A stretch of DNA of 64,000 nucleotides from assembly GCA_904420065.1 (NCBI GenBank), contig CAJFTU010000006.1:1-64000 (forward strand), read 5' to 3'. Positions 9,246-36,038 of this stretch are shown here, in pieces. This stretch comes from an uncultured Emergencia sp. (GTDB taxonomy: Bacteria > Bacillota > Clostridia > Peptostreptococcales > Anaerovoracaceae). The notes beneath the pieces are model-generated. The model worked only from the letters and a program-made list of their open reading frames with translations. It ran no database searches and was not told where the DNA came from. A program made the translations under genes and the position numbers. The stretch's first letter is position 1. The number at the start of each line of letters is the position of its first letter.

Positions 9246-9361
9246 CAGCTGTTCAAATCCTTAAACGTGTTGTTGACAAATTCCGTTATCTCCGTTCTGA
9301 AGATCAGTCCTATGGCGACGGCCAGCGCGATAAGAATCGCCACCTGCACCTTCTCACACAT
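9245..9361 (-). pseudogene. 3' part of Flp-like pilin gene, separated from its 5' part by the prophage; ATG supplied from prophage DNA gives MCEKVQVAILIALAVAIGLIFRTEITEFVNNTFKDLNS
   Basis: Manual translation; continuous with the 5' fragment at 43359-43406 through the 15-bp core. Confidence 0.9.
9336..9350. repeat. Left attachment core, ATCGCCACCTGCACC
   Basis: Exact 15-bp match to 43363-43377; flanking bases differ on both sides. Confidence 0.93.
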
Positions 9362-9381
9362 ATCTTTCAGGGAATCAAAGC

Positions 9382-9413
9382 ACGCATTGAAAAACGTTCA
9401 AATTTCAATGCGT
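9382..9413. repeat. 11-bp inverted repeat ACGCATTGAAA-N10-TTTCAATGCGT near the left attachment site
   Basis: Perfect arms at 9382-9392 and 9403-9413. Confidence 0.75.
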
Positions 9414-9564
9414 AGTGATTCTGTGAAGGTCTATTTTTATTACATTTATTTCCAAATATTAGCCTAAAATCGTGTCCTACCGTGCCAAAAACGTGCCACT
9501 TTTTTCTGATCATCATTTATTTATGGAATGTGTTTATATACGCTTTCTTGTTTCATTATTACGT

Positions 9565-9598
9565 AAAAAGGAACCGATATTATTACCGGTTCCTTTTT
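9565..9598. terminator. Bidirectional terminator just inside the left prophage end
   Basis: AAAAAGGAACCG...CGGTTCCTTTTT, perfect 12-bp stem with A/T tracts. Confidence 0.85.
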
Positions 9599-9627
9599 GA
9601 AGAACTATTGTCCCTATATACGCTGTT

Positions 9628-9999
9628 TTATCTGAAATTGTTAAATTCTTTTATGATATCTTCAGCAGCTTCCCCGTTTTCTAACCTCTTCCCTACTTTC
9701 TCTATGCTCTCCGTCATATCTTCTAAGTCCCCACAGCTGAGGGAGTAGTCGCCAAGATATAGTGTCCAGTACTTTCCTTCTTTTCTTAAGATCAAATCAT
9801 CTTTCATTATCGTCATGTTTTTTTCCTCGCTTTTCATATTTTCTATTTTTTCAACAATCAGATCTTCAACATATTTCGCTGGTTTCCGTTCCCCAGTTTC
9901 CCAGTTTCCTATTGTCCTTTTCGGAATCCTAAAAAGTTTCGACATTTCTTCTTGTGTAATACCTGCTGATTTACGTGCTTCTTTAATCCTGTTTTCCAT
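9628..9999 (-). CDS. XRE-family HTH protein
   Basis: MENRIKEARKSAGITQEEMSKLFRIPKRTIGNWETGERKP; start chosen at 9999 with RBS GGAGG. Confidence 0.8.
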   Translation of the reverse strand: MENRIKEARKSAGITQEEMSKLFRIPKRTIGNWETGERKPAKYVEDLIVEKIENMKSEEKNMTIMKDDLILRKEGKYWTLYLGDYSLSCGDLEDMTESIEKVGKRLENGEAAEDIIKEFNNFR

Positions 10000-10098
10000 T
10001 TCTCTTCCTCCGATATAGATAAATCGCCCTAATTCCTTGCACAATGCCTATTGATATAAAAGCAATGCCCATATAATATAGTATTCCATGCATAATCG

Positions 10099-10127
10099 TT
10101 GACACATGATTTTCTATCGGGTATAGT
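10099..10127 (+). promoter_or_regulatory. Strong candidate sigma-A promoter, antisense to a small hydrophobic peptide gene
   Basis: TTGACA-N17-TATAGT. Confidence 0.75.
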
Positions 10128-10133
10128 ATAGGT

Positions 10134-10258
10134 GGAACGGGGCCGAAGCCCCTGTTCATATTATGTACTTATCAATAAGTAGTAATATGGTTCCAACCAC
10201 AAGAGCTGATATTGACTGGATCGCTACATCTCTTAAGTCTATCGGCTCTTTTCTTTTA
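10134..10258 (+). ncRNA. Candidate antisense (type I antitoxin) RNA
   Basis: Follows TTGACA-N17-TATAGT and ends at a 10-bp stem (AGAGCTGATA/TATCGGCTCT) followed by TTTCTTTT; complementary to the 38-aa ORF. Confidence 0.6.
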
Positions 10259-10272
10259 TCGTGTTTACCCAT
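10156..10272 (-). CDS. Small hydrophobic peptide, candidate type I toxin: MGKHDKRKEPIDLRDVAIQSISALVVGTILLLIDKYII
   Basis: Manual translation; AAAGGAGG upstream, basic N-terminus plus single TM; GGGGC-ttcg-GCCCC hairpin downstream. Confidence 0.65.
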   Translation of the reverse strand: MGKHDKRKEPIDLRDVAIQSISALVVGTILLLIDKYII

Positions 10273-10383
10273 TCATGTGTTTTCCTCCTTTCTTTAATTA
10301 TATTATATCACTCGTTGAGTGATACGTCAAGCAGTATTTATTAATTTTTCAACATTTTCAATAAAAAAGAGGGGCACAAGCCC

Positions 10384-11295
10384 CTAAATAAACGTTACAT
10401 ATTTACCGGTTATCGTGATCCAGCCTGCTGCCGTTTTCCCCCGCGTTCCGTCACGGGATATCTGCGTGATCTTATACTGTCCGTCCAGCGATCCCGATTT
10501 TTTCGATCCCAGGCTGGCCGTTTCCCGTACCAGCAGTTTCATTTTGGTCTGAATGGTAAAGGTCGAATCCGTGCTGACCAGATTAACATACTTCGGCGTT
10601 ACCGTGATCCAGCCAGCCGATGTTTTCCCCCGTGTTCCATCAGCAGATAATTCCGTTATTCGATACACGCCGTTTTTATCCAGCGTCCCTATCTTTTTCG
10701 ATTTCAGACTGGCTGATTTTCGGATCAGCAAATTCATTTTCGGTTTGATCAAAAACGAAAAATCCATGCCGAAATAATCGCACAGTCCCCGGGCTAACGC
10801 TAACCCGTAACGTTTAGGGTTATTTTGAAACCGTTTCAAATCGGATTTTATACTGCCCGTTTCAAATATGCAGGCCGTTGCGTTGGTGTTCGTCAGTTCG
10901 CCCAGCGTTTTACTGGCATGTAACCCTCGCGTTTTCAGATTCATCATTTTCATTACTGACTGATTCAGACTGCTGGCCAGCTTTTTTCCTTCTTTGCTGC
11001 CGGTATAATAATAGGGATAAGTGCCTGTAGGCGCGCCGCTGTAATCGCAATGCAGGGAAATGTATGCGTCTACGCCAATTCGATTCGCCTCCCGGATACA
11101 GGCGTTCATATTCTGATGTCGGTCGGTCGTTGAATCCGTATACACGGTGATCCCATTATATCTGGCGAACCGGACAAATGCCCGCGTGATCGGCAGCATT
11201 AAATCCGCTTCGGTGTGTGATCCGTAAACACAGCCTGGATCCCAGCTGCCGTTATCGCTCACGCCGTGCCCGCAGGCGATGTAAACCTTACTCAT
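10384..11295 (-). CDS. N-acetylmuramoyl-L-alanine amidase (endolysin) with two C-terminal SH3-like repeats
   Basis: VYIACGHGVSDNGSWDPGCVYGSHTEADLML...YISLHCDYS...; repeats MNLLIRKSASLKSKKIGTL / MKLLVRETASLGSKKSGSL. Confidence 0.88.
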   Translation of the reverse strand: MSKVYIACGHGVSDNGSWDPGCVYGSHTEADLMLPITRAFVRFARYNGITVYTDSTTDRHQNMNACIREANRIGVDAYISLHCDYSGAPTGTYPYYYTGSKEGKKLASSLNQSVMKMMNLKTRGLHASKTLGELTNTNATACIFETGSIKSDLKRFQNNPKRYGLALARGLCDYFGMDFSFLIKPKMNLLIRKSASLKSKKIGTLDKNGVYRITELSADGTRGKTSAGWITVTPKYVNLVSTDSTFTIQTKMKLLVRETASLGSKKSGSLDGQYKITQISRDGTRGKTAAGWITITGKYVTFI

Positions 11296-11551
11296 TTTCT
11301 TCCACTTCCTCGTCGTATTCTACCGTTTCATCTTTCTGGTCTTTGATCCCTTTGGTCGTCGGGTCTACAAATACACCCAGAACGGCAATGGCCACGCTGA
11401 ACAGCAGAAACGGATTTTTGACCAGATCCACTGCAGCGGATACAACCATGTCCCAGCTGGTTAGTGTCTCCGGACTGATTCCCATTGCAGTTAAAATGAC
11501 ACCGATCAGTCCAATCCAGAAATACGGGTTTTTGTAACGATTCGTTTTCAT
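11288..11551 (-). CDS. Phage holin (phi LC3-like)
   Basis: MKTNRYKNPYFWIGLIGVILTAMGISPETLTSWDMVVSAAVDLVKNPFLL; adjacent to the amidase. Confidence 0.8.
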   Translation of the reverse strand: MKTNRYKNPYFWIGLIGVILTAMGISPETLTSWDMVVSAAVDLVKNPFLLFSVAIAVLGVFVDPTTKGIKDQKDETVEYDEEVEENE

Positions 11552-11609
11552 GTATTTTCTCCTTTCACATAAAAACCCTGCCATATCGGCAGGGTAAATT
11601 GATCTGTTA

Positions 11610-11725
11610 TTGCATTTTTTGATTCATTATGTTATAGTAATGTCAAGAGGAAACCGCTAAAAACGGTTAGCCCGAAACGATTAAATAACCGCCACAGGTT
11701 CGCAGCTTAGGCGGTTATTTTATTT
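11610..11725 (+). ncRNA. Candidate antitoxin RNA with promoter and terminator
   Basis: TTGCAT-N17-TATAGT at 11610-11638; terminator AATAACCGCC...GGCGGTTATT-TTATTT at 11684-11725. Confidence 0.55.
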
Positions 11726-11783
11726 CCCGTACAACTCTGTACAGAATCAACAGATAAATTACATCAAATATGTACTCTGTCAT
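11715..11783 (-). CDS. 22-aa hydrophobic peptide, candidate type I toxin: MTEYIFDVIYLLILYRVVREIK
   Basis: Manual translation; RBS AAGGAAGGTGATAGC-ATG, with an upstream CCTTCC able to pair with the GGAAGG SD. Confidence 0.65.
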   Translation of the reverse strand: MTEYIFDVIYLLILYRVVREIK

Positions 11784-11877
11784 GCTATCACCTTCCTTTT
11801 AATCCAAAACCCCTTTCGAGTTTTGGGGAAGGCTAACCGCTTTCGCTTGTCCTCTTGACCTGTCCATTATATCATAT

Positions 11878-12240
11878 TTATTTCCCCGGTTCTATCCCGT
11901 TTTCATTCGTGTAGTACGGGTTTCTGATCGTTCTGACCGGTACCACAGGAAGATCTTTGCAGCGTTCTACCAGTTCGGTCATTGCCCCGTTTCCTCCCAG
12001 CGCGTGATACGCGTCATAGATTTCTTTCAGGTCGTCGTACTCTTCTACGGTGATCTGATTGGTGGTAACGTAAAACTCGCCAAACCGGCGAATCTTCTCC
12101 CTGCAGTTCACCTTTTCCGCCGTCATTACGCCCTGCATATTTTTCAAAATACGCGATAACGTTTTCACTGCGTAGGCCGCAAGTCCTGCGCAGGCTATCC
12201 CGATCAGATTGTCCACAATTAATTTGAAAATTTGCTCCAT
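11878..12240 (-). CDS. Phage membrane protein, unknown function
   Basis: ORF with N-terminal TM in the lysis/tail region. Confidence 0.6.
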   Translation of the reverse strand: MEQIFKLIVDNLIGIACAGLAAYAVKTLSRILKNMQGVMTAEKVNCREKIRRFGEFYVTTNQITVEEYDDLKEIYDAYHALGGNGAMTELVERCKDLPVVPVRTIRNPYYTNENGIEPGK

Positions 12241-12248
12241 GATTCCTC

Positions 12249-12704
12249 CTAATTTACCACGCTGAAATAGTGCCCGATCAACGCACTTGGCTTGTAAGCC
12301 AGCGTGTATTTGTCTCCGCTCTTTCCGCCCTGCCGGTCGCAGATGTACAATGTGCCGGATTCATTGTAGTATTTGCCCCATTCGTACTCAAATGAGACAA
12401 GCTGATCCGGTACCGGAATAGGGTCTTCGATCGTTCCGGCATGATCTGCGTTGATCGCTGTCCAGAGTGACGCGGTGTAAATTGACGGCCTCCAGTTCTC
12501 TTGTGTCGTGTGCGGTGTTCCTGTTCGCCACAAAATTCCGTCGCAACGATACCGGTTCTGCCCGTCATCGATCATTTTCTGTGTGATCTCGATACCGACC
12601 GCCCATTCCGGGTATAGCTCGATACCCTTTACTGCTGTCTGATCTGATGCGGTGAATCTTACATCTTTCAGATAACTTACCAGTTCTTCTTTGTTCATGC
12701 TCAT
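12249..12704 (-). CDS. Phage tail-associated protein, possibly carbohydrate-binding
   Basis: Tail-fibre region; Trp/Tyr-rich segments (YEWGKYYNESGTLYICDRQGGKSGDKYTLAYKPSALIGHYF). Confidence 0.5.
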   Translation of the reverse strand: MSMNKEELVSYLKDVRFTASDQTAVKGIELYPEWAVGIEITQKMIDDGQNRYRCDGILWRTGTPHTTQENWRPSIYTASLWTAINADHAGTIEDPIPVPDQLVSFEYEWGKYYNESGTLYICDRQGGKSGDKYTLAYKPSALIGHYFSVVN

Positions 12705-12722
12705 GGTGTCCTTCCTTTCTGA

Positions 12723-13372
12723 TTACGCAAATAATAAAACGGTATACTCCTGTCCGCCGGTGTAATAAATTCCGGCTGCATCGCTTATAAACTCTGCGGT
12801 GGAAGCCGTTACGGTCATCGGATAGTCCCTCGTGTCTACGTCCATAGCGTACGATATGAATTGTAATGCGGTCAGTGTAGAGGATCCTTCACGATCTACG
12901 GCCACTGAAAAATATAGATTTTGCTGACTTCTTACCTCCATCATGTCGGATAGTATCATCACCATTTTCGGCCTCACGCCCAGCGAGTGATTTATTATTT
13001 TTCTGTTTAATGTCGTATTTGCTGATGGTGTAAAGGTCACTTTTTCAACTTGCGAGTATCCGACAAACGAGATGAAGTCCATGTACGAATCCGGAATAGC
13101 TCCGACGGTCACTTTACTCAGATACTTGCCGGCTGCCGGCGTGACAATCTGCTGACTGCCTGATGGAGTAACGGTCTTCTCCTCCGTCTGCACCGGATTC
13201 ACGGTCAGCTCCGTATCGGTGTAAGCCGGGATCGTGACCGCTTCGCTTCCCGGTTCAATTATGGTTGACCCCCCCCCCCGAGCCAATGATTGACTGCCGG
13301 AAGGTCTTGAACTGCTTGCAAAATTTGCTGCAGGTCGATATTGTTCGCCTGCAGATCCGTTTTATTACTCAT
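12723..13372 (-). pseudogene. Phase-variable or frameshifted tail-fibre-like protein, currently out of frame
   Basis: ATG at 13372 reads MSNKTDLQANNIDLQQILQAVQDLPAVNHWLGGGGQP* through an 11-G tract (13269-13279); the remainder is open in another frame. Confidence 0.75.
13269..13279. repeat. Homopolymer tract of 11 C (G on coding strand)
   Basis: Direct reading. Confidence 0.9.
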
Positions 13373-13793
13373 TTTTGTTTACCTCGCTTACGATTTCATT
13401 CACTGTATCCTGTTTGATCGTTTCGCATAACTCATCACTGATTCCATATGGATTCTTTGGCCTGCTGTCGACGATTTCCTGCACACGGTCTTTGATTTCA
13501 GACGGTACATCATCGATGGTGATGTCTCCGGCGATGATCTTGTCTGCAAACTGCGGAGCTGCGGAAATTCCCGCTTCCTCCCGGTAATCTTCCGGAATTG
13601 CAGAATACTCAATGCTGCCGGATACCAGCTGCTCTGCATAGCTACGTACCGCCTCCGCGTGTGCTTTGATCTCATTCATCAATTGGTTGTACTCTTCTTC
13701 TGTGATAGACGTCTGCCCTTCTACTGCTGGGAATGACTGCGTCCCAATCATTTTCAGTTTTCCTTCTTCTTCAATCTTGTAGTAATAAATCAT
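13365..13793 (-). CDS. Phage tail-fibre-region protein, unknown function
   Basis: ORF within tail module; start MIYYYKIEEEGKLKMIGTQ. Confidence 0.6.
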   Translation of the reverse strand: MIYYYKIEEEGKLKMIGTQSFPAVEGQTSITEEEYNQLMNEIKAHAEAVRSYAEQLVSGSIEYSAIPEDYREEAGISAAPQFADKIIAGDITIDDVPSEIKDRVQEIVDSRPKNPYGISDELCETIKQDTVNEIVSEVNKNE

Positions 13794-13803
13794 GTTTTAC
13801 CTC

Positions 13804-14406
13804 CTATTTTACAGCTATCCACAAATACGTTTCTCCGGATTTAAACGGGTAGTCTTCGTTGTAGCCCAAAAAGCTCATGTTGGCATAAACCCTAAAATTT
13901 CGCGCGTTGACCGTTATTGCATGGTTCGATGAACCATGCAATATCCAATCCGCTTTCGTTCCGTATACATACGATCCGTTGCTATATTGTCCGGATTCGT
14001 ACATCGCCGTTTTCGTGTAATTTGTATTGTCGTAGTTGGTCAACGTGAACACGACTTTTCTCGGCACAGCTCCGAGCGAGTGATTGATTTTTATAACCTC
14101 TGCATTCCTGTCTGTTATTACGACTTCGCCAAAATCGACTCCAAAGTCCGCTAAGCTGGTATTCGCTGTTCCCGTCACGCCGAAAATAGACACGCCGCTG
14201 GCGATGTTCTCTGCAATCAGGTTCACATCGCCCTGTACAGTCAATGCGGTATCGGTGTATGCCGGGATATCTACATCAGCAGTCCCCGGTATGATAGTAC
14301 CCCCCCCCGACCAGTGACTGGCCTGTGGCAGGTCTTGAACTGCCTGAAGTATCTCTTGCAGGCCCGCATTATTCGCCTGCAGATCCGTTTTATTACTCAT
14401 CTTCAC
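13804..14406 (-). CDS. Tail-fibre-like protein, paralogue of 12723-13372, in frame through a 9-G tract
   Basis: MSNKTDLQANNAGLQEILQAVQDLPQASHWSGGGTIIPGTADVDIPAYTDTALTV; G9 tract at 14300-14308. Confidence 0.7.
   Translation of the reverse strand: MKMSNKTDLQANNAGLQEILQAVQDLPQASHWSGGGTIIPGTADVDIPAYTDTALTVQGDVNLIAENIASGVSIFGVTGTANTSLADFGVDFGEVVITDRNAEVIKINHSLGAVPRKVVFTLTNYDNTNYTKTAMYESGQYSNGSYVYGTKADWILHGSSNHAITVNARNFRVYANMSFLGYNEDYPFKSGETYLWIAVK
14300..14308. repeat. Homopolymer tract of 9 C (G on coding strand)
   Basis: Direct reading. Confidence 0.9.
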
Positions 14407-14677
14407 TTACCTCTTTGACGATTACATCAATAACCTCGGTGAATTTAGGATCGTCAATTTCTTCATAATTTTCCTCGCTGTCTCCTGTGCCGAGATCAAC
14501 CCTTGTTCCACCCGTAAATCCGGTTTGTTTATGATGAAAAACCTTTCCGGTATCTGCGATCAACGACGTGATTATCATCTCGTCTGGCTCGCCTATAGGC
14601 TGCATCTCTTCATCATAGGTTTGGTTCGTTATTTTCCGGTATTCTTTCTTCATATTTTCCTCCTTATAGCGCATCAA
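14393..14677 (-). CDS. Small phage protein, unknown
   Basis: ORF coupled to neighbours. Confidence 0.55.
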   Translation of the reverse strand: MMRYKEENMKKEYRKITNQTYDEEMQPIGEPDEMIITSLIADTGKVFHHKQTGFTGGTRVDLGTGDSEENYEEIDDPKFTEVIDVIVKEVSEDE

Positions 14678-15851
14678 ATTGTTCTTCGGTTACGCCCCAT
14701 GTTGTCGTGAATGTTATGCGTCCTGATGATGCCGAGTTACAATTCCAGTATTGCCCCCAGTTTGACGGCTTTGACGCTGCTTCGCAGTAGAATTCCAGAT
14801 TCTGTGAATTAGAGAACGCAACAGATGCAAGCTGCCCTCCATCGATATAGGTTACTGTGTCAGGGATGAAAAATTTTATATTTTCTCCACTTTTTCCGTG
14901 TGAGAAACTAAACGCATCATAGTTTATTTTCGTCACGTTTCTTGACAGTTTAAATTTTGCCGAATTCGCCATCAGTCTGAAACAATTAGAAAACACATGC
15001 GGCATAATTTCGCCTTTAAAGTCAAATTCTGCATATTTCAGATTTTTGAACGTGTCGCCGTCAGGGAACGCTGCGTTTGTACTATTTCCTTTTAGGTACG
15101 GGCTATTTTGATAAATCTGAAACAGTACATCTGTCGGGCGGTTATCTTCCCCGACTTTTCGATAGATCATTCCGCCCTGTGGATCAATCACTTTTTCATA
15201 ATAGTATCCGTCTTTTATTCCTCCGTTCGGGTAGGCATCTTCTGCATCTGCTACAATGTAATTTGCAAACGCTCCCCTTTGGGCTGCTCTCAGTACTTTT
15301 TCCCCCGTATAGGAAAAAGTGAATGTTCCATCATACGGCGCATTTCCGGTCAGGATCTCCCCTGCCTCCGGATTGTAAGAGATTACCTTCCATTTTTGCG
15401 TTGAATCTGTTCCCCAAAAATATTTCACTACGCCTTCATCATAGTCGAATTTGTTTGTGCCGTTTCCCGCATCAAATCCAGCAAAAAAGTTAACGTCATT
15501 AATTAACGATTTATCAAAACTGGACTGCGTGATTTTGATATAATTCGTAGATGGGTTATTTACATCGCCGGTAAACGACGGGTTTTCCACAGTGATCTCT
15601 TCTTCCCATACATAGGCTTTCCATATATATTTGCCATGTTTCAGTGTTTCCGGATCAAGCGACCCTATGATTTTCTCTCCCTGTACCCACGCTTTATATC
15701 CTTCCAAAATCGTTTCCGCCGTTGCGTTGGCGTCGTCTCCGACTTTGCCGATCAGTGCTGTCATGATCTGATCCACTAACGGGTTCTGTACTTCAACTTC
15801 TGCTGTTACGTCTTCCCCGCCGCCGGGAAATTGATTAATAATCTGTCCCAT
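14664..15851 (-). CDS. Phage tail fibre protein
   Basis: Position next to baseplate genes; length and composition. Confidence 0.6.
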   Translation of the reverse strand: MGQIINQFPGGGEDVTAEVEVQNPLVDQIMTALIGKVGDDANATAETILEGYKAWVQGEKIIGSLDPETLKHGKYIWKAYVWEEEITVENPSFTGDVNNPSTNYIKITQSSFDKSLINDVNFFAGFDAGNGTNKFDYDEGVVKYFWGTDSTQKWKVISYNPEAGEILTGNAPYDGTFTFSYTGEKVLRAAQRGAFANYIVADAEDAYPNGGIKDGYYYEKVIDPQGGMIYRKVGEDNRPTDVLFQIYQNSPYLKGNSTNAAFPDGDTFKNLKYAEFDFKGEIMPHVFSNCFRLMANSAKFKLSRNVTKINYDAFSFSHGKSGENIKFFIPDTVTYIDGGQLASVAFSNSQNLEFYCEAASKPSNWGQYWNCNSASSGRITFTTTWGVTEEQFDAL

Positions 15852-15861
15852 GCTTCACCTC

Positions 15862-16251
15862 CTACCCTAATCTCACGATGATTGGTATATCTGTCGTCGG
15901 TTTTTCGCCGTACGCTTTGATCGTCAGGCTATTTTCTGCTTGTGCTGTTTTCCGTAGCATAGCTGTAACCGCTGATTGATATTGTTCATCGGTTGCGGTA
16001 TCAGCTACAGCTATCAGACCGTCACTGTCTGCAGTGATTCCCTCTAACGTCAGGTTATAGGTGTACGGCGCTGTTTCTCCTGTCCAACCAGTAGATAATA
16101 GGGTAGCCGTTAGGTAGGTAGCTCCTTGTCCTTCTATAGCCTCGTGCAGTTTTTCGTCTATGATGTCCATATTATTGTTTATCACAGAAATGTCCACATT
16201 TTCGTTTCCTGCTGGTTTGGTCAGGTTATAATATTGCGTTTGTGTTGCCAT
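15862..16251 (-). CDS. Phage tail-fibre N-terminal/connector-like protein
   Basis: MATQTQYYNLTKPAGNENVDISVINNNMDIIDEKLHEA. Confidence 0.65.
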   Translation of the reverse strand: MATQTQYYNLTKPAGNENVDISVINNNMDIIDEKLHEAIEGQGATYLTATLLSTGWTGETAPYTYNLTLEGITADSDGLIAVADTATDEQYQSAVTAMLRKTAQAENSLTIKAYGEKPTTDIPIIVRLG

Positions 16252-16256
16252 CTAAT

Positions 16257-16784
16257 TCACCTCGTCTGCAGTTCGTCCCATGTTGACGTTTTTGCCTGAT
16301 CCCATGTCAGCGTCAACACATCATTCCATGTATTATACGTGTAAACGTATTCAATCGGTAAATGTGCAGGTTTTGCATCTTCCAGCGCTGCTTTTAACCC
16401 TTCCAGGTCATTTGGTATTCCTTTGTCCGTAAAAGTGACGACGATCTTCCCGTCTTGAAAATCAATCTCCGTCTTTCCATACTTCCAGCTATCCGCAATG
16501 TTTTGCATCGTTTCCACGCTGGTATGCCCCGATGCTCGCCATTTTGCAATCAAACTATATCGTCGATCATCGATGTCCGACTGGTAGGGCGTAATGCCTG
16601 CTTCCGCTTCATAAAATTTCAGCATATCTTCTGAGCAGGTGTCAAAGAACATGTCATCATTAATCTGTCGTCTTCGGCTGTCCAGATCGTCCAATTCCAT
16701 GCCGAACGCGTCCAGAATGGCGTTGACCATTGGGCAGGTCAGATTGATTTTATTTACTTTTCGTTTTAATTCATTGTTCCGCAT
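16257..16784 (-). CDS. Putative phage tail protein (YmfQ/DUF2313-like)
   Basis: Downstream of baseplate J; typical length and order. Confidence 0.7.
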   Translation of the reverse strand: MRNNELKRKVNKINLTCPMVNAILDAFGMELDDLDSRRRQINDDMFFDTCSEDMLKFYEAEAGITPYQSDIDDRRYSLIAKWRASGHTSVETMQNIADSWKYGKTEIDFQDGKIVVTFTDKGIPNDLEGLKAALEDAKPAHLPIEYVYTYNTWNDVLTLTWDQAKTSTWDELQTR

Positions 16785-17823
16785 AGGTGAATACCGCCGT
16801 TCCCAATATTGCCACGCTACGCTCTGGCACGCTGATGTTTCCTGTTCCGCTGTTTACTGTCAGCTGTTCGTAGTCCAGCACGCCTTCGACGTCCAATATG
16901 TAATTTCCGACCTGCGCATAGGATACATTCGCATCGGTGAACGCAATGCTGGCCAGATACGTTTCTATAGAATCCTTTATTCCCTGTTCAATCGTTGCAT
17001 GATCCCCATTTACCGTCAGTTTCGCGGTTATATTGATGTCCAGGCCTGTTGCTGCAGATACATAGCAATGGGCGCCCATCGGTGCGACACCTTCTCCTTT
17101 TCCTGATGATTCCGGATCAATGTATTCCTGCACCTGCTGCACCAGTAATTCTGATGCTGGTTTTTTTTCTGTATCAATGATGACAACATCAACTGTGTTT
17201 TCTCCTTTGGCCAGTGGGAACACTTCGGCATCTCCAACGCCACTTACTTCTAATGCCCACGTTTTATACGCTGCTTTATTGCTGCTTCCGGGCGGATTTC
17301 GCAATATCAGTAGATAGCGTTCTCTTAGCGCTTTGTCCGTTTCTGCATCGTATCCGTCATGCGTGGGTTCATTATTTGTACAGGCGTTGATTCCTGCAAT
17401 GGTTACCGGCATCTGTGTGATACTGCCGGCGCCAACCATGCCCGTATTTCCTGATACCAGTGCAGTTACCGGCACCTCGCCGGTATTTACAATTTGTACG
17501 GTTTCATCTGCTGCAAACTGTACACCATTCGGGGTTTCGAAAATATCCCCCTGATTTACAGTTCCAGTCCCTGTCACGGTAACAATTCCCTTTGCGTAGG
17601 TGGCTGCCCTTCGACTTACGCCTTTTCGTTGGCTGACGAATCGTTCCAGTTCGTTCCCAGTCAGATTTTCGATGTCGAATTTTGCGTCTACTGCAGCCAG
17701 ATCCGTGTCCATTTCGTCCATAACCTGTCCTACGGATTCCGTCAAATCATAAATCAAATACCCCGGTGTTTTTTCATATTCATTTGAGATCCGGTCGCGA
17801 ATTTCCTGTCCGTTTTCAGACAC
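16771..17823 (-). CDS. Baseplate J-like protein
   Basis: 350 aa; VSGNTGMVGAGSITQMPVTIAGI...DAETDKALRERYLL...VEVSGVGDAEVFP-type motifs. Confidence 0.88.
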   Translation of the reverse strand: MSENGQEIRDRISNEYEKTPGYLIYDLTESVGQVMDEMDTDLAAVDAKFDIENLTGNELERFVSQRKGVSRRAATYAKGIVTVTGTGTVNQGDIFETPNGVQFAADETVQIVNTGEVPVTALVSGNTGMVGAGSITQMPVTIAGINACTNNEPTHDGYDAETDKALRERYLLILRNPPGSSNKAAYKTWALEVSGVGDAEVFPLAKGENTVDVVIIDTEKKPASELLVQQVQEYIDPESSGKGEGVAPMGAHCYVSAATGLDINITAKLTVNGDHATIEQGIKDSIETYLASIAFTDANVSYAQVGNYILDVEGVLDYEQLTVNSGTGNISVPERSVAILGTAVFTYAEQ

Positions 17824-18253
17824 TGGTTTCCACCTCCACCTCTGTTTTGTCTGTCATTACTACTGTTAACGATATCGTCAGCTTATCGCCTTCTTTTTTA
17901 AACTGAAAATCTTCTATGCTTTCAATTGCCCGATTGTCCAGTGCTTTTTCTTCGACTTCGCGTTTGATTTCACTGGCGACGAACGCGGTATCTTTGTATC
18001 CGATGTAGTTTTCGATGTATGTACCAAAATCCGTTCCATCATATACGTCAAATTTATCCGCGGCAGTTTTGACCAAGAATCCGACCCATTGCCTTACCGC
18101 CTCTTTCTGGGTGCATTCAATGATCTTGCCGTCTCTCACGACGTAGCGACCACGATCGAAATCATACAGCGGCGTTCGCCCGATTTTCGTCGACTGCATG
18201 GCGACCAGATTTTCTTCTTCTGTTTCAAAATCATAATTTACTTCGGGAAACAT
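17816..18253 (-). CDS. DUF2634 (XkdS-like) baseplate protein
   Basis: DFDRGRYVVRDGKIIECTQKEAVRQWV; gene order. Confidence 0.78.
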   Translation of the reverse strand: MFPEVNYDFETEEENLVAMQSTKIGRTPLYDFDRGRYVVRDGKIIECTQKEAVRQWVGFLVKTAADKFDVYDGTDFGTYIENYIGYKDTAFVASEIKREVEEKALDNRAIESIEDFQFKKEGDKLTISLTVVMTDKTEVEVETSV

Positions 18254-18254
18254 G

Positions 18255-18659
18255 TCATTCCTCCAGCAGATCGATCAGCGCCATTGTTGACACGCCATCA
18301 ATCGGCGCAATCAATACTCGCTGACCTTTTTTCGGTACGTCCTTGCGTTTTGCCGTAATCGTCGTTCCATCTGGCCTTTCAAACGTAATGTTTTCACTGT
18401 ATTCGGAAAATGTTCTGCTTAAAAACAGATTATCTCCGGCGTAATACATTGCTTCGCCGCCCAGGACGGATACCGTTACCGGCGACAAGTTTTCCAATGT
18501 GCCAATGTAGAACGACGCGTCGCTTATAGCCTGTGCTCTTGCTTTTCTTTCTCCATTTTTGATCCTGTTCGCAATTTCATACTCCCACATTAATAATTCT
18601 CCATTTCGCAGTTCATCATATGTAGTCCCTTGTTTAGCGTGTGTGTGCAGCTTTTGCAT
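18255..18659 (-). CDS. DUF2577 (XkdR-like) protein
   Basis: Gene order; KGQRVLIAPIDGVSTMALIDLLEE. Confidence 0.65.
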   Translation of the reverse strand: MQKLHTHAKQGTTYDELRNGELLMWEYEIANRIKNGERKARAQAISDASFYIGTLENLSPVTVSVLGGEAMYYAGDNLFLSRTFSEYSENITFERPDGTTITAKRKDVPKKGQRVLIAPIDGVSTMALIDLLEE

Positions 18660-19561
18660 TTGTACCAGCCTTTTATCCCGACCTCTGGACGGTCAAAGTA
18701 GACCATACGTGATGCCCTTACCACATTGTTCCCGACCATTTCCGCCGTAAACGATACGATGACCTTATTTAGGCTGGCCAGCTTATTCTTCGCAATGTTT
18801 CTCGCTTTCGCTTCATTTATATCATCTTGTGTTTCTACCTCAGTCAATAGTCCGTATTTTGCAATCGATGTGTCTGACTTTGCCGTCGCTTTGATCTGCG
18901 TCTTTTTTTCGTCAGTTCCGGCAACGATCACTTTATTTCGCAGATCCTCGATCGATCTGGTCCCGGTAATATTGCACGATTTCGTGCAGGACAGAATCCT
19001 GCCCGTTTTGTCTTCATACGTCGGTTTTACTTTGATGTACCCGTCCTGTATGATGTTTAGTTTCCCTTTGGACATCTCCATGCGGTATCCTTTTCCGGTT
19101 TCATTCTTAACTTTTTTCAGGATATCTGTCAGCACATCTGCCACAATTTCGTCTTTATAGGTCTTATTGATCAGCGTGGCCAGATTTGGCATTGTGCCAA
19201 TAGGCACATCATAACGGTCGCACAATTTTCGGATTGCCTTCGACGCAGAAATTTTATTAAACTGAATAACGGTTTCTGATTTGTTCAGGTAATAGGCGTA
19301 ATCATATCCGCTGTAAGTTCCTCCTTCCAGCGGCACGGACGTAATCATGCCGCGTAAGAGTTCCTTTCCGTTATTCGTGATCAGTATCGTATCCCCGTTA
19401 TATAGCCTGCCTTTGAATTGTTCGTCAAAATAGCTGTGCGGAAGATCAAAGCTAAATTCCATTCCCAGCGAATCAACGGAATCTGACCAGGTTAGATTTC
19501 CGATTGCTTTTGAAATGTTTGTTCGTTTTCCGTTTCGAATTTGGTAAATTTGATAGTTCAC
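18590..19561 (-). CDS. XkdQ-like baseplate hub protein
   Basis: GNLTWSDSVDSLGMEFSFDLPHS, GKGYRMEMSKGKLNI. Confidence 0.78.
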   Translation of the reverse strand: MNYQIYQIRNGKRTNISKAIGNLTWSDSVDSLGMEFSFDLPHSYFDEQFKGRLYNGDTILITNNGKELLRGMITSVPLEGGTYSGYDYAYYLNKSETVIQFNKISASKAIRKLCDRYDVPIGTMPNLATLINKTYKDEIVADVLTDILKKVKNETGKGYRMEMSKGKLNIIQDGYIKVKPTYEDKTGRILSCTKSCNITGTRSIEDLRNKVIVAGTDEKKTQIKATAKSDTSIAKYGLLTEVETQDDINEAKARNIAKNKLASLNKVIVSFTAEMVGNNVVRASRMVYFDRPEVGIKGWYKCKSCTHTLNKGLHMMNCEMENY

Positions 19562-19984
19562 TTAATACACCAACCTGTATTGCTCAAATTCCATGCTGTA
19601 AGAATAATCCCCATTTTTGTTTACTCCGCTGATTTCGAATGTCTCCAGCGCGCAGAGCCGGTTAAATACCTCAGTTCCGTCGTTGCGAGTTATGACGATC
19701 CGCATGGTTTTCCGGTTTTTTCTGGAATTACGAAATAGCCTTACATATTGCATTGGATCCTCGTAGGCATCTGGTTCCATATATTCCTGTCTGCCGTTTG
19801 GAAAAACGCTGGAAATACTGACTTTTGCCAATGGTTCCGCTCCCATGACTTTGATCTGGCTGTATTTCACGGCATCTTTGTTTTCATTAGGGCTATCCCC
19901 ATACGATATCGTCAGCATTTCCGTCGTTACATATGGCAGCACGACAATCGTTTTGTTGTTATCTATTCCTATGGTAATCTTCAT
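19562..19984 (-). CDS. XkdP-like phage tail protein, no LysM segment evident
   Basis: Position between tape measure and XkdQ. Confidence 0.6.
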   Translation of the reverse strand: MKITIGIDNNKTIVVLPYVTTEMLTISYGDSPNENKDAVKYSQIKVMGAEPLAKVSISSVFPNGRQEYMEPDAYEDPMQYVRLFRNSRKNRKTMRIVITRNDGTEVFNRLCALETFEISGVNKNGDYSYSMEFEQYRLVY

Positions 19985-19994
19985 GCTGCCCTCC

Positions 19995-21635
19995 TTAGCA
20001 ATTTCCTAACGCAGATATGATTCTGTTTGCAATGTATTTCCCGGATTTTTCCATGTATTCTTCGTTTCCAATCATGTTCCCCTGAACAGTATAGTTCACC
20101 GTAATGGTCGTGCCTCCTCCCATCTTCGGCACTTGGTCATGAGGGATAATCTGCGTACCCGACGGGAAAATCGCCGCTTCGGATCGTCCTCTTTCAGAGA
20201 ACCCAGTTAAACCACCTTTAAAATATGTCGTTCCTGTGGCGTGGCCGGCTACGCTGTTTGCTATACTTCTTACGCCTTTTGCACCTGTCCCTGTCGCCTG
20301 ATTGATTTTTTTGGCATCGCCGGCAAGGCCGAATAGTTCTTTAAACTTATCTATTGCCGTACCGATCCAGCCGACCACCGTCTGGATCACGCCGACGATC
20401 CCGAATATTGCATCACGAAAAACGCCGATTGGTCCTCTGGCATTCATGAACCATTTTTTCGCTTTTTCGATCCATTTTCCTAATTTTTTCCAGTTTTTAA
20501 TCAGCCAAAGCACGACTGCGACGACGGCGGCGATGGCTAATCGGATTAACAGCACTTTCGGATCTAAACCAGTAAACGCTTTCCCTAATACGTCGACCAC
20601 TGTTTTAACCTGATCGAACGCATTTTTTAAAACGCTGATTCCTTTCAGCGCAAGCATTGCTTTTAACACATTTTTCGCAACAGGAATCAGCCAATCCGCA
20701 TTATCTTTTAACCATTTGATTGCATCTGCTGCTGTGTTGCAGGCTTTCGAAAATACATTTCCTACCTTTTCAGCGATCCGGTCTATCGTCCCATCTTGCT
20801 GCCACTTGTCCAGCGTTTCTGCCAACTTAATCATTTTTTCGCGGATAATGTCGAATGCACTTCCCGCTCGAACAGTTCCGTCTGATTGCATGCCCATTAC
20901 GTTGGCAAGCGCACTTTTTACCGTTCCGGTTACTGTAGACCATGCGCCTTTTAGGGTTTGCGCTTGTTTTGCTGCACCTCCGGCGAATTTATCTTCCATC
21001 AGCGCAAGCATTGCCTGATTAAATTTTTTCTGATTGGTGATCTGGCCTTGATTGTTTATGATTTGTTCGTTTGTGAACATTTTTTCGGCTTTTTCCTGGA
21101 TCTGTCTCTTCGTGATGCCAAATTCCTTTAATCGTTCCAGTTCACCAGTTTGCGCGTCGATTAACGCTTCCACCGCCTGGTCAAATGACTTGTTTGTCGC
21201 GCCCGCCATATCTCCGGTATAGGTCAGCCATTTTTTCGCCGACATGCCCATTGACTCAAACTTTGCCGCGCCTTCTACGACTTCATTGCCTTCGAATGGC
21301 GTTTTGTTGGCGTAATCCATCGCATAGGTCATGATTTTTGCCGCTTTTTGCGTGTCCTTCGTGGCAGTTTCCAGTTGCGCCCGGTAACCCTCCATGTCGA
21401 ATGCCTCAGAAAAACCCGTTTTCACTGCCGCTGCGCCTAATACTCCCAATCCTGCTGCTGCGCGTTTTGCCGCTTTGGTCAGTTTTTTATCCATAGACGT
21501 CGCGAACCGCTTAATTCGCGCATCGGCGATTTTCACCTGATTCTGAACCTTTTTCGTTTCACTCGAAACATTGCGAAGCGGCTTCGAAATTTCATCTTTC
21601 AGTTTTAAAATGACAGCTAACTTTCTACTTGCCAA
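19995..21635 (-). CDS. Phage tail tape measure protein
   Basis: 546 aa; SEAFDMEGYRAQLETATKDTQKAAKIMTYAMDYANKTPFEGNEVVEGAAKFESMGMS; C-terminal GGTTITVNYTVQGNMI. Confidence 0.88.
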   Translation of the reverse strand: MASRKLAVILKLKDEISKPLRNVSSETKKVQNQVKIADARIKRFATSMDKKLTKAAKRAAAGLGVLGAAAVKTGFSEAFDMEGYRAQLETATKDTQKAAKIMTYAMDYANKTPFEGNEVVEGAAKFESMGMSAKKWLTYTGDMAGATNKSFDQAVEALIDAQTGELERLKEFGITKRQIQEKAEKMFTNEQIINNQGQITNQKKFNQAMLALMEDKFAGGAAKQAQTLKGAWSTVTGTVKSALANVMGMQSDGTVRAGSAFDIIREKMIKLAETLDKWQQDGTIDRIAEKVGNVFSKACNTAADAIKWLKDNADWLIPVAKNVLKAMLALKGISVLKNAFDQVKTVVDVLGKAFTGLDPKVLLIRLAIAAVVAVVLWLIKNWKKLGKWIEKAKKWFMNARGPIGVFRDAIFGIVGVIQTVVGWIGTAIDKFKELFGLAGDAKKINQATGTGAKGVRSIANSVAGHATGTTYFKGGLTGFSERGRSEAAIFPSGTQIIPHDQVPKMGGGTTITVNYTVQGNMIGNEEYMEKSGKYIANRIISALGNC

Positions 21636-21776
21636 CTTCGCTCACCTCTTCAGCATATTTTTCCATCGCAGCGATATAGAACATTTTTTCAATCATGCCT
21701 AAACCGAAAAGTTCATCTAAAGAATGGCCGCGCAGGAGATAAAACGCAATCATCTGCGCTTCTCCGTCGCGGCCCA
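21625..21776 (-). CDS. -1 frameshift extension of tail assembly chaperone (KKLMGRDGEAQMIAFYLLRGHSLDELFGLGMIEKMFYIAAMEKYAEEVSEVGK)
   Basis: Reached by -1 slippage on A_AAA_AAC at 21780-21786. Confidence 0.8.
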
Positions 21777-21786
21777 TCAGTTTTTT
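21726..21786 (-). promoter_or_regulatory. Programmed -1 ribosomal frameshift element
   Basis: AAAAAAC heptamer in the correct phase (ATA AAA AAC TGA), 5-nt spacer, GGCCGCG/CGCGGCC stem. Confidence 0.8.
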
Positions 21787-22169
21787 ATGTCTTCGACTGT
21801 ATCGGCTAATCCATACATGTCTAAAATCCGGTTGCAAATCCGATTCATCTCGCCCAGATCGTCGTCCAGAACCTTCATAACAATTTCTGTCGGCTCTTTG
21901 CAATCATAGGCTTCCTGTAACTCCTTGTCGTGAAACAATGGAACAGAGGCGTAGATCAATTCTGCGTTCAGTTCCATATTCGCACGAAGGGAATCTTCTT
22001 CTGTCATATCCATGATATCCGCGATTCTGGTTATCGGCAGCTTCTTGATCATCAGCGTTTCGCCGATCGCTTTGCAATCGTACTCAATATATTTTATTTC
22101 ATTCGCTTTTTTCGCCTGTGCTCTTGCGATCAAAGACTCTTTTGTTGCTTTCTTCATTTTTTCGCCCAT
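21777..22169 (-). CDS. Phage tail assembly chaperone (XkdN-like), zero frame
   Basis: MKKATKESLIARAQAKKANEIKYIEYDCKAIGETLMIKKLPI; position between tube and tape measure. Confidence 0.8.
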   Translation of the reverse strand: MGEKMKKATKESLIARAQAKKANEIKYIEYDCKAIGETLMIKKLPITRIADIMDMTEEDSLRANMELNAELIYASVPLFHDKELQEAYDCKEPTEIVMKVLDDDLGEMNRICNRILDMYGLADTVEDIKN

Positions 22170-22170
22170 T

Positions 22171-22605
22171 TTACACCGCCATATCTAACATCTCGAAGTC
22201 CGCAAACTTAAATGGTACTTCTTCCTCTCCGATGGTTTTCTCTTCAAATTTTAGGATCGTCGCCTCGTCGAAGGTTACCTCATTCATCTGTACACGTTCT
22301 GCTCCGATTCCGGCTGGATCATCAATCATTCCTACTACGACGATTTCTGGGAAACGTCCCGCTTTCAGGTCCGCCAGCAGCATCTGCATAATCGACGAAT
22401 CGACTTTGTGAAACGTCATCGTTCCTTCTCCGGCGTAACCCATATACTTCTGGTGTGTTCCTGTGTCCTCCGCGATGTTCACCTCTTCAAAGGTGAATGT
22501 TAACTTCGCTTCAAAACTTTTTATGTTAGCGAATTTTTCGCCGTTAATGAACACCCGTCCGAATGTCCCGTTGAATACCTGATTGGCGTTTGGTTTTTTC
22601 TTCAT
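22171..22605 (-). CDS. Phage tail tube protein (XkdM-like)
   Basis: ANQVFNGTFGRVFINGEKFANIKSFEAKLTFTFEEVN. Confidence 0.85.
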   Translation of the reverse strand: MKKKPNANQVFNGTFGRVFINGEKFANIKSFEAKLTFTFEEVNIAEDTGTHQKYMGYAGEGTMTFHKVDSSIMQMLLADLKAGRFPEIVVVGMIDDPAGIGAERVQMNEVTFDEATILKFEEKTIGEEEVPFKFADFEMLDMAV

Positions 22606-22615
22606 GTTTTCCTCC

Positions 22616-23668
22616 TTAGTTCATATATACGTTGAACTGCAGATCTTCGATGGCATCGGAAAATCTGACATTTGCTTGCAGGTAAACATAGGTTTTGTAC
22701 GGGTTCTTTTTTACCGTTTCGGTGTCCCAGTCCATCGCTTCGGTTTTTCCTGCTGAGATCCACGCCTTCCGCTGCGTTTCCGCGTCGATCTCTGCCAGAT
22801 TATCAAAATCCCGGCTTAACACATCTTCAATTTCGAGCTGCCGGAAATAGGTATTTACCGCGGCCATGAAAACCGTCTGGTTGTCCACTGTGTTTTTGTA
22901 TTTTCCGATATAGCTTTCCTTGAACGTCGTAATGATGTCCTCTTTCATCAGATCCATGCCTTCGACGATCGTGATCTTTTTTAAATCCTCGTTCTCTACA
23001 GTCGTCGCGGAATTCACGCCTCTTGCTACGCGAACGGTTCCATAGTCGTTAAATAGGACAAATTCGCCGTCATCTACTGCGGAACCTGCGTCTGCTACAT
23101 CAATAACGGATTCCAGATCGTCAAATATGTAGTACGTGCTGCTGCGATCCAGCGGTAATGCAGCTAACATTCCGGCAATTCTGCCCAGGTATTTGTATCC
23201 GTCGATTTCTGCCGCGTCATCTTTTCGTTTTACTTTTGTGTTTGTGAAATTGACGACATGCGGATCATCTGCCGGCTGGTTATACACGACGGCTTTGATT
23301 GGCACGGCTGCCGGTTTCGCGTTTCGCGATTCGACATAGGTCGGTACTGCCGTCTGCGTCTGTCCGATATATGCCAGCCAGTTAAACTTCAACGTATCTA
23401 ATGTGGCTTCAATGTCCGTAAACGCTTTACTGTCAGGAATCCTTACAACATATACCTTTGTTGGCCCGTCAGTGAATGCGTCTTCGATTGCTGCGTAGTT
23501 TTCCGCCGTATAGTCTGTCTGCAGCACCTCGCTCAGCGCGCTGTATTCCGATATGGCTGTTTCTTTCGTGGTATCATCAACGACCAGGCAGACGATCCCT
23601 CGTTCACTTCGTGTGATTGCTGTCTTTGCCTTCGTTAAAAACTCCACGGTAATATTTGGCAAACCCAT
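22616..23668 (-). CDS. Phage tail sheath protein (XkdK-like)
   Basis: MGLPNITVEFLTKAKTAITRSERGIVCLVVDD; 350 aa. Confidence 0.88.
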   Translation of the reverse strand: MGLPNITVEFLTKAKTAITRSERGIVCLVVDDTTKETAISEYSALSEVLQTDYTAENYAAIEDAFTDGPTKVYVVRIPDSKAFTDIEATLDTLKFNWLAYIGQTQTAVPTYVESRNAKPAAVPIKAVVYNQPADDPHVVNFTNTKVKRKDDAAEIDGYKYLGRIAGMLAALPLDRSSTYYIFDDLESVIDVADAGSAVDDGEFVLFNDYGTVRVARGVNSATTVENEDLKKITIVEGMDLMKEDIITTFKESYIGKYKNTVDNQTVFMAAVNTYFRQLEIEDVLSRDFDNLAEIDAETQRKAWISAGKTEAMDWDTETVKKNPYKTYVYLQANVRFSDAIEDLQFNVYMN

Positions 23669-23671
23669 AGA

Positions 23672-24094
23672 TTATTCCTCCTTGATGACCAGTTCTTCCA
23701 TGTCTGGTCCAGTTTCTTCGACGTATTGCCACATTTCATAATCGAATTGCAAAATCAATACGTCATCGTTTTCCGTGAACTGCAGTTCGTTGATAGGGAT
23801 CACAAAATCCTCTTCAACGGTCAACGTGTCCGCAAATGCCTCCCGCAGTTTTTCCTGCACATTAAAAAACTCCAGACGATTGTTGTATCTGTCCGGAGGG
23901 AAATAGTCGATATAGATTGTCCCTGACTCGTGTTTGAAATCTTTTGGCCCGTCCATGATCGGCACAGGATATTCCACATAAAAACTTCCTGGCTTAACCG
24001 CCTTATCCTTGTCTGTCGATACGACCGATCTATCTGGAAATGTGCTTTTTAGCACGGCATTTACCGCTTTAACAACGTCTTTTGTCGTGATCAT
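23672..24094 (-). CDS. Phage tail terminator-like protein
   Basis: Length and order between gp10-like and sheath. Confidence 0.7.
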   Translation of the reverse strand: MITTKDVVKAVNAVLKSTFPDRSVVSTDKDKAVKPGSFYVEYPVPIMDGPKDFKHESGTIYIDYFPPDRYNNRLEFFNVQEKLREAFADTLTVEEDFVIPINELQFTENDDVLILQFDYEMWQYVEETGPDMEELVIKEE

Positions 24095-24504
24095 TTCCCC
24101 AGCTCCTCTAAAATGAAATCCACCAGGTTGTTGTTGATGTCGTCCAAATATTCTGGTTCAAACGCTTTTCCTGCATGCTCGATGATATGATAGCCGGTGA
24201 CGTAGCCGAGCATTTCCCCTGCATGGGTCAACATACGATGCCCGTATTCCAATAGGTGTGTATGCGGTGAACTGTTATAGACCCTGATATTGTAGTCAGC
24301 ATCGCCCCATTTATAGATCTTCCGGCCGACTTGAAACCCGCTCAGATAGTTTCCCGTCTTTCGGTTAACCGTTCTTCGTGCGCGTGCGCGCATCTGTTTA
24401 CGCAGTTTTCGGCCTTCTTCCTTCATGAATTTTTTTGTTTCTTTAGGGAATGCTTTGATCGCGTCATTGATATCGTCTGCAAATTTAATCAGATCATCTG
24501 CCAT
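24091..24504 (-). CDS. HK97 gp10-like protein
   Basis: FMKEEGRKLRKQMRARARRTVNRKTGNYLSGF; order. Confidence 0.75.
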   Translation of the reverse strand: MADDLIKFADDINDAIKAFPKETKKFMKEEGRKLRKQMRARARRTVNRKTGNYLSGFQVGRKIYKWGDADYNIRVYNSSPHTHLLEYGHRMLTHAGEMLGYVTGYHIIEHAGKAFEPEYLDDINNNLVDFILEELGK

Positions 24505-24848
24505 CAGATCACCTCCTGTACGTAAATCGTTGCATACACTGATGTTCGATTTGGCGGCAAAATGTAGTCGATTTCAAACCGGTGCACCCGTTTGTTTCGA
24601 TCCTCCCACAGTAAATAACAGTCCGTTTCGATATCCGCGACCACTTCCGCGCGTACAGTGATGGTATGTGTCGTTTTTGACAGCATTGTGTCCGCAGGAC
24701 GCCCGGTCATCAGCGATCCAGTTCTCGGCTGCACATTCGCCCATACTTTTTTTAACAATGTCGGTTGCGGCTGATCCTCATTTAGTTCGCTGGTTATCAG
24801 TGTGTCCTGATAGATGCTGATTCTACTGTCCAGCTGCCCGATGTTCAT
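24504..24848 (-). CDS. Phage head closure protein
   Basis: MNIGQLDSRISIYQDTL...KVWANVQPRTGS; order. Confidence 0.75.
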   Translation of the reverse strand: MNIGQLDSRISIYQDTLITSELNEDQPQPTLLKKVWANVQPRTGSLMTGRPADTMLSKTTHTITVRAEVVADIETDCYLLWEDRNKRVHRFEIDYILPPNRTSVYATIYVQEVI

Positions 24849-25144
24849 TGCGTCACCTCTTCATAGTCTGTAGAAATGGCAATGTGGTTCAGAATGGACT
24901 GTACATGTGTGGCTAACGGTAACTCCTTTAACTGTTCCGTGGTCGTTGTTCCTCGGTGATCGTACCAATCGGCAGTGATCATTCTGACCGCCTGTAGATA
25001 TAGGGCAGATTCTCCGGTAAACGCTTTCCCCGTTTCATTTTCGCACCGTTCGATCACAGCTTCGATAATAGACTTGAGGACGGCGTTATCGTCGTCCTCG
25101 ATTTTTAGGTAGTCTTTAACGCTGTTCAGAATCTCCTGTTCCAT
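24845..25144 (-). CDS. Phage head-tail connector (gp6-like)
   Basis: ILNSVKDYLKIEDDDNAVLKSIIEAVIERCENETGKAF. Confidence 0.8.
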   Translation of the reverse strand: MEQEILNSVKDYLKIEDDDNAVLKSIIEAVIERCENETGKAFTGESALYLQAVRMITADWYDHRGTTTTEQLKELPLATHVQSILNHIAISTDYEEVTQ

Positions 25145-25158
25145 TCTGAACCTCCTTT

Positions 25159-26301
25159 TTATGCCGATGCTCTCTCAAATCTTACAATAGCGTTCTTGTC
25201 GGCTAACTTTCCGTCGGCCAACGCCATCGCCCTGTATACCGTACTTCCGCTTCTGAACCCGACTGATGTATCCCGGGCAACTTCCGGTGCCTTGGCGAAA
25301 TTCAGCTTGTATTCCTTCAGATCTCCAAAGAATACGTTATCCGTCGCATCGATGGTTGCATTGTCGTCAATGATGACCGGATAGCCTAAAATGTTGAATT
25401 TTCCCGGCGCCTGTACATCTGCAACAACGACTTTATCACCCGTGGTCGTGGTCATACCCATAACCTCGTTATAGAATACGGTTCTCGACATAACGAACGA
25501 TGCATTTCTGGCGTACTTTGTCGGCAGGGTCGCAATGATCTTCATCAGATCCTTTAACGTCATGCCGGCTTTTGTGAATGTTCCGGATTCGGTTGCGATC
25601 GTGGTTGCAATACCGGTCGCCTGGCTGCTTCCGGTTCCGGACAGAATCGCCTTGTCCAGTGCGACGTCGATTTTATTTGCCAAACGCGCGACAAGCCAGT
25701 TTTCAAACGCGTCGATCGCCATCGCTTCCACGTCGGCGGTGATTTCTACGGTTTTGATCAGCTTGTATGCGCTCAAAGTTACCGACGTTAATGTATCGGC
25801 AGAATCTGTTGCCGCAGTTCCCATTGCTACCCATGATGCGTCGTTTACTGTTTCCTCCACCGGGAAGGATATGTTGCTTGGGATATAGGAAATATCAATG
25901 GCATTTAGCAATGGATTCAGATCCAGACGGCCTACGATCATATTCATCGTCTGCGTCGGGATTGCCGCACTTGCTGTTACTGCCGCCCTTTCCTCTGCAT
26001 CAAGTGGTTTTCCTTGCAGATTTTTCAGCCACGCCGTTCTGTACTCTGGCGTATCTACAGCAAACGTCCGTTCTTCTTCCTTTCCGTTTCCGAACCGTCT
26101 GGTTACTCTGCCCTCTCTCATAGCTGCGTCAAGAATGGCCTGTCTTTTTTCTGCGGTCTCTGCTTTTTTCTTCAGCTCATCATATTCATCAGCTAACTTT
26201 CTGCTTTCTTCCTGCAGCGCGTCCAGATCCGCTTTCGGTTTATCTACTTCTTCTCTTATTTCGGCCAGTCTTTTTTCGATTTCTTTCATTCTTTCGTTCA
26301 T
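25159..26301 (-). CDS. Phage major capsid protein (HK97 fold)
   Basis: N-terminal coiled-coil delta domain then IPTQTMNMIVGRLDLNPLLNAIDI, ...LDKAILSGTGSSQATGI. Confidence 0.9.
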   Translation of the reverse strand: MNERMKEIEKRLAEIREEVDKPKADLDALQEESRKLADEYDELKKKAETAEKRQAILDAAMREGRVTRRFGNGKEEERTFAVDTPEYRTAWLKNLQGKPLDAEERAAVTASAAIPTQTMNMIVGRLDLNPLLNAIDISYIPSNISFPVEETVNDASWVAMGTAATDSADTLTSVTLSAYKLIKTVEITADVEAMAIDAFENWLVARLANKIDVALDKAILSGTGSSQATGIATTIATESGTFTKAGMTLKDLMKIIATLPTKYARNASFVMSRTVFYNEVMGMTTTTGDKVVVADVQAPGKFNILGYPVIIDDNATIDATDNVFFGDLKEYKLNFAKAPEVARDTSVGFRSGSTVYRAMALADGKLADKNAIVRFERASA

Positions 26302-31117: not shown

Positions 31118-31148
31118 TTCTTCCTCCTTTCGCGTATGCTAATTACGC

Positions 31149-36020: not shown

Positions 36021-36038
36021 GTCGATTTAACATAGTCT

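Follow-up and report, generated by a model that had tools for sequence, protein, structure and literature searches.

Two adjacent paralogous genes of a prophage carry long homopolymeric G tracts at the same codon site, and the best reading of this arrangement is that a temperate phage with a contractile tail varies its receptor-binding fibres by slipped-strand phase variation (probability roughly three in four). The window analysed, i.e. the whole stretch of DNA, is 64 000 nucleotides long and comes from an uncultured Emergencia sp. Both genes lie on the minus strand. Gene A (12723..13372) contains a run of 11 G (13269..13279, 11 C on the plus strand) encoding the Gly hinge HWL-GGGG; it is OFF as assembled, with 37 codons followed by a stop at 13261–13259. 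Gene B (13804..14400) contains a run of 9 G (14300..14308, 9 C on the plus strand), reads HWS-GGG-TII and is ON as assembled, giving 198 aa from the ATG at 14400. The two proteins begin with the same pattern (MSNKTDLQANN..LQ.ILQAVQDLP....HW), directly followed by the G run. At the DNA level this corresponds to a 128-nt direct repeat containing the tracts, 76% identical and 1028 bp apart. The original prediction had described shared N-termini with same-site G tracts, a B copy reading through as HWSGGGTIIPG and an A copy reading HWLGGGGQP-stop that 9 or 12 G would restore. The exact counts, the frames and the repeat bore this out. The B gene it had placed at 13804–14406 was also recovered, but its start is most likely the ATG at 14400 and not the GTG at 14406.

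The length of each tract was then varied in silico. Gene A gives 215, 216 or 217 aa at 9, 12 or 15 G and a stub of 36–39 aa at 8, 10, 11, 13 and 14 G. Gene B gives 197–200 aa at 6, 9, 12 or 15 G and otherwise a stub of 40–44 aa. Changes of ±1 base thus switch both genes between a full-length and a truncated product, the frame being intact on either side of the tract. An internal TTG directly 5′ of the tract was not adopted as the start of A, as it has no ribosome-binding site. After the tract, A contains 181 open codons with a coding score of 0.154 per codon, compared with 0.164 for B, and the other frames score negative. Tract length is the sole visible fault of the gene. Because its remaining sequence is intact and coding, A is a switched-off gene and not a decayed one. 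A rival view, in which duplication of a fibre gene left A as a pseudogene with a recent frameshift and without functional switching, draws on the fact that A is OFF while its paralog is ON. It is quite improbable, since 181 codons without a further lesion and a coding signal equal to that of B are hard to reconcile with relaxed decay, the shift falls exactly at the slip-prone tract, and an in-frame homolog retains a long tract (13 G).

Both tracts are homopolymers of about 8 or more G/C inside a gene and longer than composition predicts. G/C runs of 3, 4, 5, 6, 7 and 8 occur 802, 136, 18, 1, 0 and 0 times in the window, followed by one run of 9 and one of 11. Pattern searches of the whole draft genome (2.41 Mb, 58 contigs) returned a single run of length 8 and four of at least 9. 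The tracts of A and B therefore exceed chance and are strong length outliers in both the window and the genome. Codon choice was also inspected. GGG makes up 19% of the Gly codons of the prophage, and its two other Gly3 runs are encoded by a mixture of codons. A neighbouring tail-region protein of 395 aa (14664..15851, minus strand) has a Gly3 hinge encoded by GGC GGC GGG, with no homopolymer, and the tract-less first paralog found in two other prophages encodes the same hinge with GGT/GGC/GGA. A glycine hinge thus does not need a homopolymer.

An assembly or sequencing error would make A a gene of 9 or 12 G, with both genes constitutively ON and the run serving as a Gly hinge. The genome is a draft of 58 contigs and homopolymers are the usual error class; moreover, a Bifidobacterium breve tract annotated as G11 was mostly G12 in culture (PMC9187656). 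G counts in assemblies may accordingly miss the population majority (PMC9187656), and this applies to the present draft. The B. breve discrepancy, however, accompanied genuine heterogeneity: the G11 tract was about 37% G11 and 60% G12 in culture, and a G10 tract varied much less (PMC9187656). Miscounting also leaves unexplained the different same-site lengths in an independently sequenced species and the recurrence of the design in unrelated phages, and the outlying run lengths hold even if a count is off by one. We consider such an error unlikely.

Emergencia timonensis SN18 (G005; NZ_FLKM01000008; family Anaerovoracaceae) harbours the closest related prophage. This prophage carries a syntenic tandem pair of A/B-type genes, flanked by a CD1375-like gene and a phrog_27545-type gene. 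Their tracts occupy the same codon site and count 7 and 13 G, which leaves both genes in frame (ON). These genes are 58–62% identical to A and B in their N-terminal part. Conservation of the tract in related prophages had been proposed as a check, and it was found here. Tract lengths at this site are 7, 9, 11 and 13 G across four homologous genes of two phages, so that the position is conserved and the length is not. Searches at the family, order and class levels recovered A/B-type genes only in E. timonensis among the genomes sampled, plus distant tract-less relatives. Neither the N-terminal profile nor the partner gene nor the HW-polyG DNA pattern recovered a relative of A or B from IMG/VR, and phage records gave a single partial match of 47% (MT837813), which has no tract. 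No two assemblies of one phage with differing tract lengths were found.

Long homopolymers can slip during transcription. An 11-G gene could in this way yield some full-length protein, and programmed slippage of the RNA polymerase or the ribosome might set a fixed ratio of full-length to truncated product, with DNA length changes being incidental. Against this, the homolog lengths of 7, 9, 11 and 13 G (10, 11 and 14 elsewhere) fall in different frame classes, and programmed slippage as the main explanation is very unlikely. DNA slippage and transcriptional or ribosomal slippage are not mutually exclusive.

Each gene of the pair has a partner gene upstream on the same strand. The partner of A (13365..13793) matches CD1375-like proteins and phrog_1382, and its stop overlaps the A start (ATGAGTAA). 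The partner of B (14393..14677) has no family hit and shows the same ATGAGTAA overlap with the B start. These overlaps, together with the direct repeat, suggest that A and B arose by tandem duplication of a two-gene unit. The repeat, which contains the tracts, could also serve recombination between A and B (gene conversion, or deletion swapping the C-termini), slippage being secondary. This is highly improbable: the locus has no suitable inverted repeats, 76% identity is too low for frequent homologous exchange, and the tract is also found in phages whose first paralog is tract-less.

The prophage spans about 34 kb (9351..43362). The 15-bp att core GGTGCAGGTGGCGAT is present at 9336–9350 and 43363–43377, inside a Flp pilin gene, and the integrase gene is located at 42261–43340. 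The gene set comprises terminase, head, sheath, tape measure, baseplate, endolysin and integrase genes. The tail sheath (22616..23668, minus strand; phrog_1480, E 1e-102) indicates a contractile tail (myovirus morphology). On the basis of the sheath, the integrase and the other prophage genes, the phage is contractile-tailed and temperate. Baseplate and tail protein genes (16257..19561, minus strand; phrog_521, phrog_6, phrog_120, phrog_400) lie on one side of A and B, and a phrog_27545 protein gene, holin-like genes and an endolysin gene (10384..12704, minus strand) lie downstream of A on the other. No Pfam or PHROG match of A or B had a convincing E-value, and an AlphaFold model from five homologs was unusable (pLDDT 37). 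Their predicted identity as fibres or receptor-binding proteins is therefore positional, plus paralogy. The tail-fibre assignment originally made is thus consistent with the place of the genes between baseplate and lysis functions and with their paralogy.

Past the tract, A and B are 34% identical over 109 residues, so that a conserved N-terminus is joined to a diverged C-terminus. The N-terminal part would probably attach to the virion and the C-terminal part would probably bind the receptor, the poly-G tract encoding the Gly hinge between them. When host or phage DNA is replicated, slipped-strand mispairing would add or remove a single G. Each gene would then be ON at one length class in three, making a full-length fibre at 6, 9, 12 or 15 G; at the other lengths it would make a stub of 36–44 aa, and the change would be reversible. 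Since the tract codes for glycine, in-frame changes would merely lengthen the hinge. Two independent switches would give up to four fibre states in a virion or lysogen population. We infer slippage itself, expression, tail incorporation and receptor binding of A and B from these features. The claim that the tracts are prone to phase variation is well supported by the 7/9/11/13 G homologs, the unrelated phages, the intact OFF frame and the candidate poly-G promoter switches across the host genus. The further claim that the phage varies which adhesin it displays is plausible, with the amendment that the switches are independent (four states) and need not alternate.

Judged from their sequences, putative poly-G fibre genes of this design recur in phages unrelated to the A/B phage. 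In a prophage of another genus member (G011), the hinge of the first fibre gene is GGTGGTGGTGGG. A small CD1375-like gene follows, then a second paralog that begins MIIIKNV-G10 and is OFF; 8 or 11 G would give 142 or 143 aa. A candidate second strain of this phage (L143) was rejected, as it was 100% identical over 10.7 kb; it duplicates another record (L135), both having G10 and being identical, and probably represents the same isolate. A G22 run at a G011 contig end (L134), with poly-A behind it, was left out of the evidence as a possible artefact. IMG/VR was scanned for RBS-ATG-polyG, which gave at least 80 loci. The majority are not fibres, several being cytosine methylase-like among the matches listed. 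One locus with baseplate genes (L177) has a tract-less Kelch-type protein gene followed by a G10 paralog, OFF, which gives 433 aa in frame. The largest poly-G fibre set among the matches listed is that of IMGVR_UViG_3300011977_000007 (110 kb). Its four fibre-like paralogs have tracts of 11, 14, 11 and 11 G; each is OFF and would open at 10 or 13 G.

Cytosine methylase-like phage genes with 10–14 G near an AIGGGG.GI.GxRS-like motif were seen at eight loci (L016, L026, L169, L173, L178, L193, L197 and L201). They are candidate phase-variable methylases, or assembly-error hotspots. A small ORF containing a 9–11 G tract was seen in three prophages (L041 8779–8859; L270 1514–1588; L267 about 1515–1613), ahead of the target of a diversity-generating retroelement (DGR), a DGR-target-like DUF6273 protein gene or a second fibre paralog. 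Depending on the length class, the ORF ends either at or slightly beyond the start codon of the next gene, or well before it. These ORFs are a possible translational-coupling switch.

Campylobacter Fletchervirus phages are described in citing papers as having a hypermutable poly-G tract in a receptor-binding protein gene (Sorensen et al., 2021, Cell Rep 35:109214, via PMC10579305, PMC11868660 and PMC11959909). As far as these descriptions go, the present locus resembles theirs in having the tract in a (here predicted) receptor-binding protein gene and a host whose surface is also (here by prediction) poly-G phase-variable. Fletchervirus phages are lytic and infect a Gram-negative host, whereas the present phage is temperate and integrated in a gut Clostridia genome, with two adjacent paralogs, independent tracts and placement of the tract in a Gly hinge. 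Phase variation of receptor-binding proteins has been demonstrated in Campylobacter phages, and a 2025 review treats it as an exceptional case (PMC11959909). In B. breve, likewise a Gram-positive gut bacterium, the genes of sortase-dependent pili have coding tracts of G10/G11 and are OFF as annotated; slippage was measured there, with combinatorial ON/OFF states of two loci, but these are bacterial pilus genes and not phage genes (PMC9187656). A search of the open-access literature, with most subscription papers outside its scope, found no report of poly-G switching of receptor-binding proteins in gut Clostridia prophages. What is new relative to known poly-G receptor-binding proteins is the temperate phage, the Gram-positive host, the tandem paralogs and the Gly-hinge tract.

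Other phages obtain alternative or diversified tail proteins by different means. In Bordetella phage, a DGR diversifies the tail adhesin by mutagenic retrohoming, whereas tract length is the variable here. A prophage of another genus member (G007), 64–74% identical to this one in tail genes, carries a DGR in the neighbouring slot, beside a phrog_27545-type gene; it consists of an RVT_1 reverse transcriptase and a TR/VR pair in which 14 of 15 differences are at TR adenines. RVT_1 (PF00078) is absent from the whole genome analysed here, so the one tail backbone is combined with a DGR in one phage and with paired poly-G fibres in the other. The invertible G/C segment of Mu and P1 and the shufflons likewise provide alternative phage tail fibres from one genome. 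At the A/B locus, inverted repeats are weak and none frames the pair, as an invertible cassette would require, and the predicted switches are independent and not exclusive.

Runs of at least 9 G were classified in seven genus genomes and in this genome, giving 26 outside the pair in the window. TTGACA and TATAAT boxes on either side of each run were scored, with a threshold of at least 10/12. Eleven of the 26 runs passed it, with spacers of 17–20 and the run exactly between the −35 and −10 boxes; random positions did so in 0.36% of trials. One example is ttgacaaaaatatacG10tataat, upstream of an InlB B-repeat domain protein gene. Other poly-G spacers precede genes for Big_4/Cthe_2159, VWA and NAGPA proteins and a DcuC transporter. 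Across the genus, spacers of 9–10 G are found at L110, L112, L113, L120 and L123–L128, several of them before surface or secreted proteins. In this genome, a G10 run between TTGACA and TATGCT (C40:11986–11995; L009 about 5987) precedes a YfhO (869 aa)-GtrA-GT2 operon and is a candidate phase-variable promoter of host-surface glycosylation. These promoter-spacer runs suggest that Emergencia-group bacteria use poly-G slippage as a general switch. A G9 run (C14:43935; L008 5936–5944) was also observed in an 86-bp gap upstream of a gene for a BspA-type LRR protein of 1124 aa that seems to have a wall anchor at its C-terminus; the run is not surrounded by promoter boxes.

A broader and still doubtful proposal is a two-sided arms-race code in the Emergencia group. 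The host would flip surface proteins and the YfhO/GtrA/GT2 wall-glycosylation operon by poly-G promoter spacers, and its prophages would flip matching fibre sets by poly-G coding tracts, some of them gating a DGR-diversified adhesin by a poly-G leader ORF. On this view, poly-G fibre arsenals would be a host-range strategy that is general among gut Firmicutes phages and has been overlooked. If the phase-variation reading is true, the poly-G mechanism of receptor-binding proteins extends to integrated phages of commensal Clostridia, and phage–host co-switching could be measured from tract lengths in existing read sets. Consensus assemblies would list such switched fibres as broken genes.

Two further features of the prophage were recorded. 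An array of about 19 units of a 9-bp tandem repeat (34020–34271) lies in an Asn-Cys-rich ORF (33803–34387; NCNNCNNCN...). The Flp pilin gene in which the prophage sits belongs to a Tad pilus locus and is split after MLTNKKGMEMVQVAI; an intact pilin, 98% identical, is present in genus member G006. From the position of the insertion, lysogeny should abolish the Tad pilus and excision should restore it.
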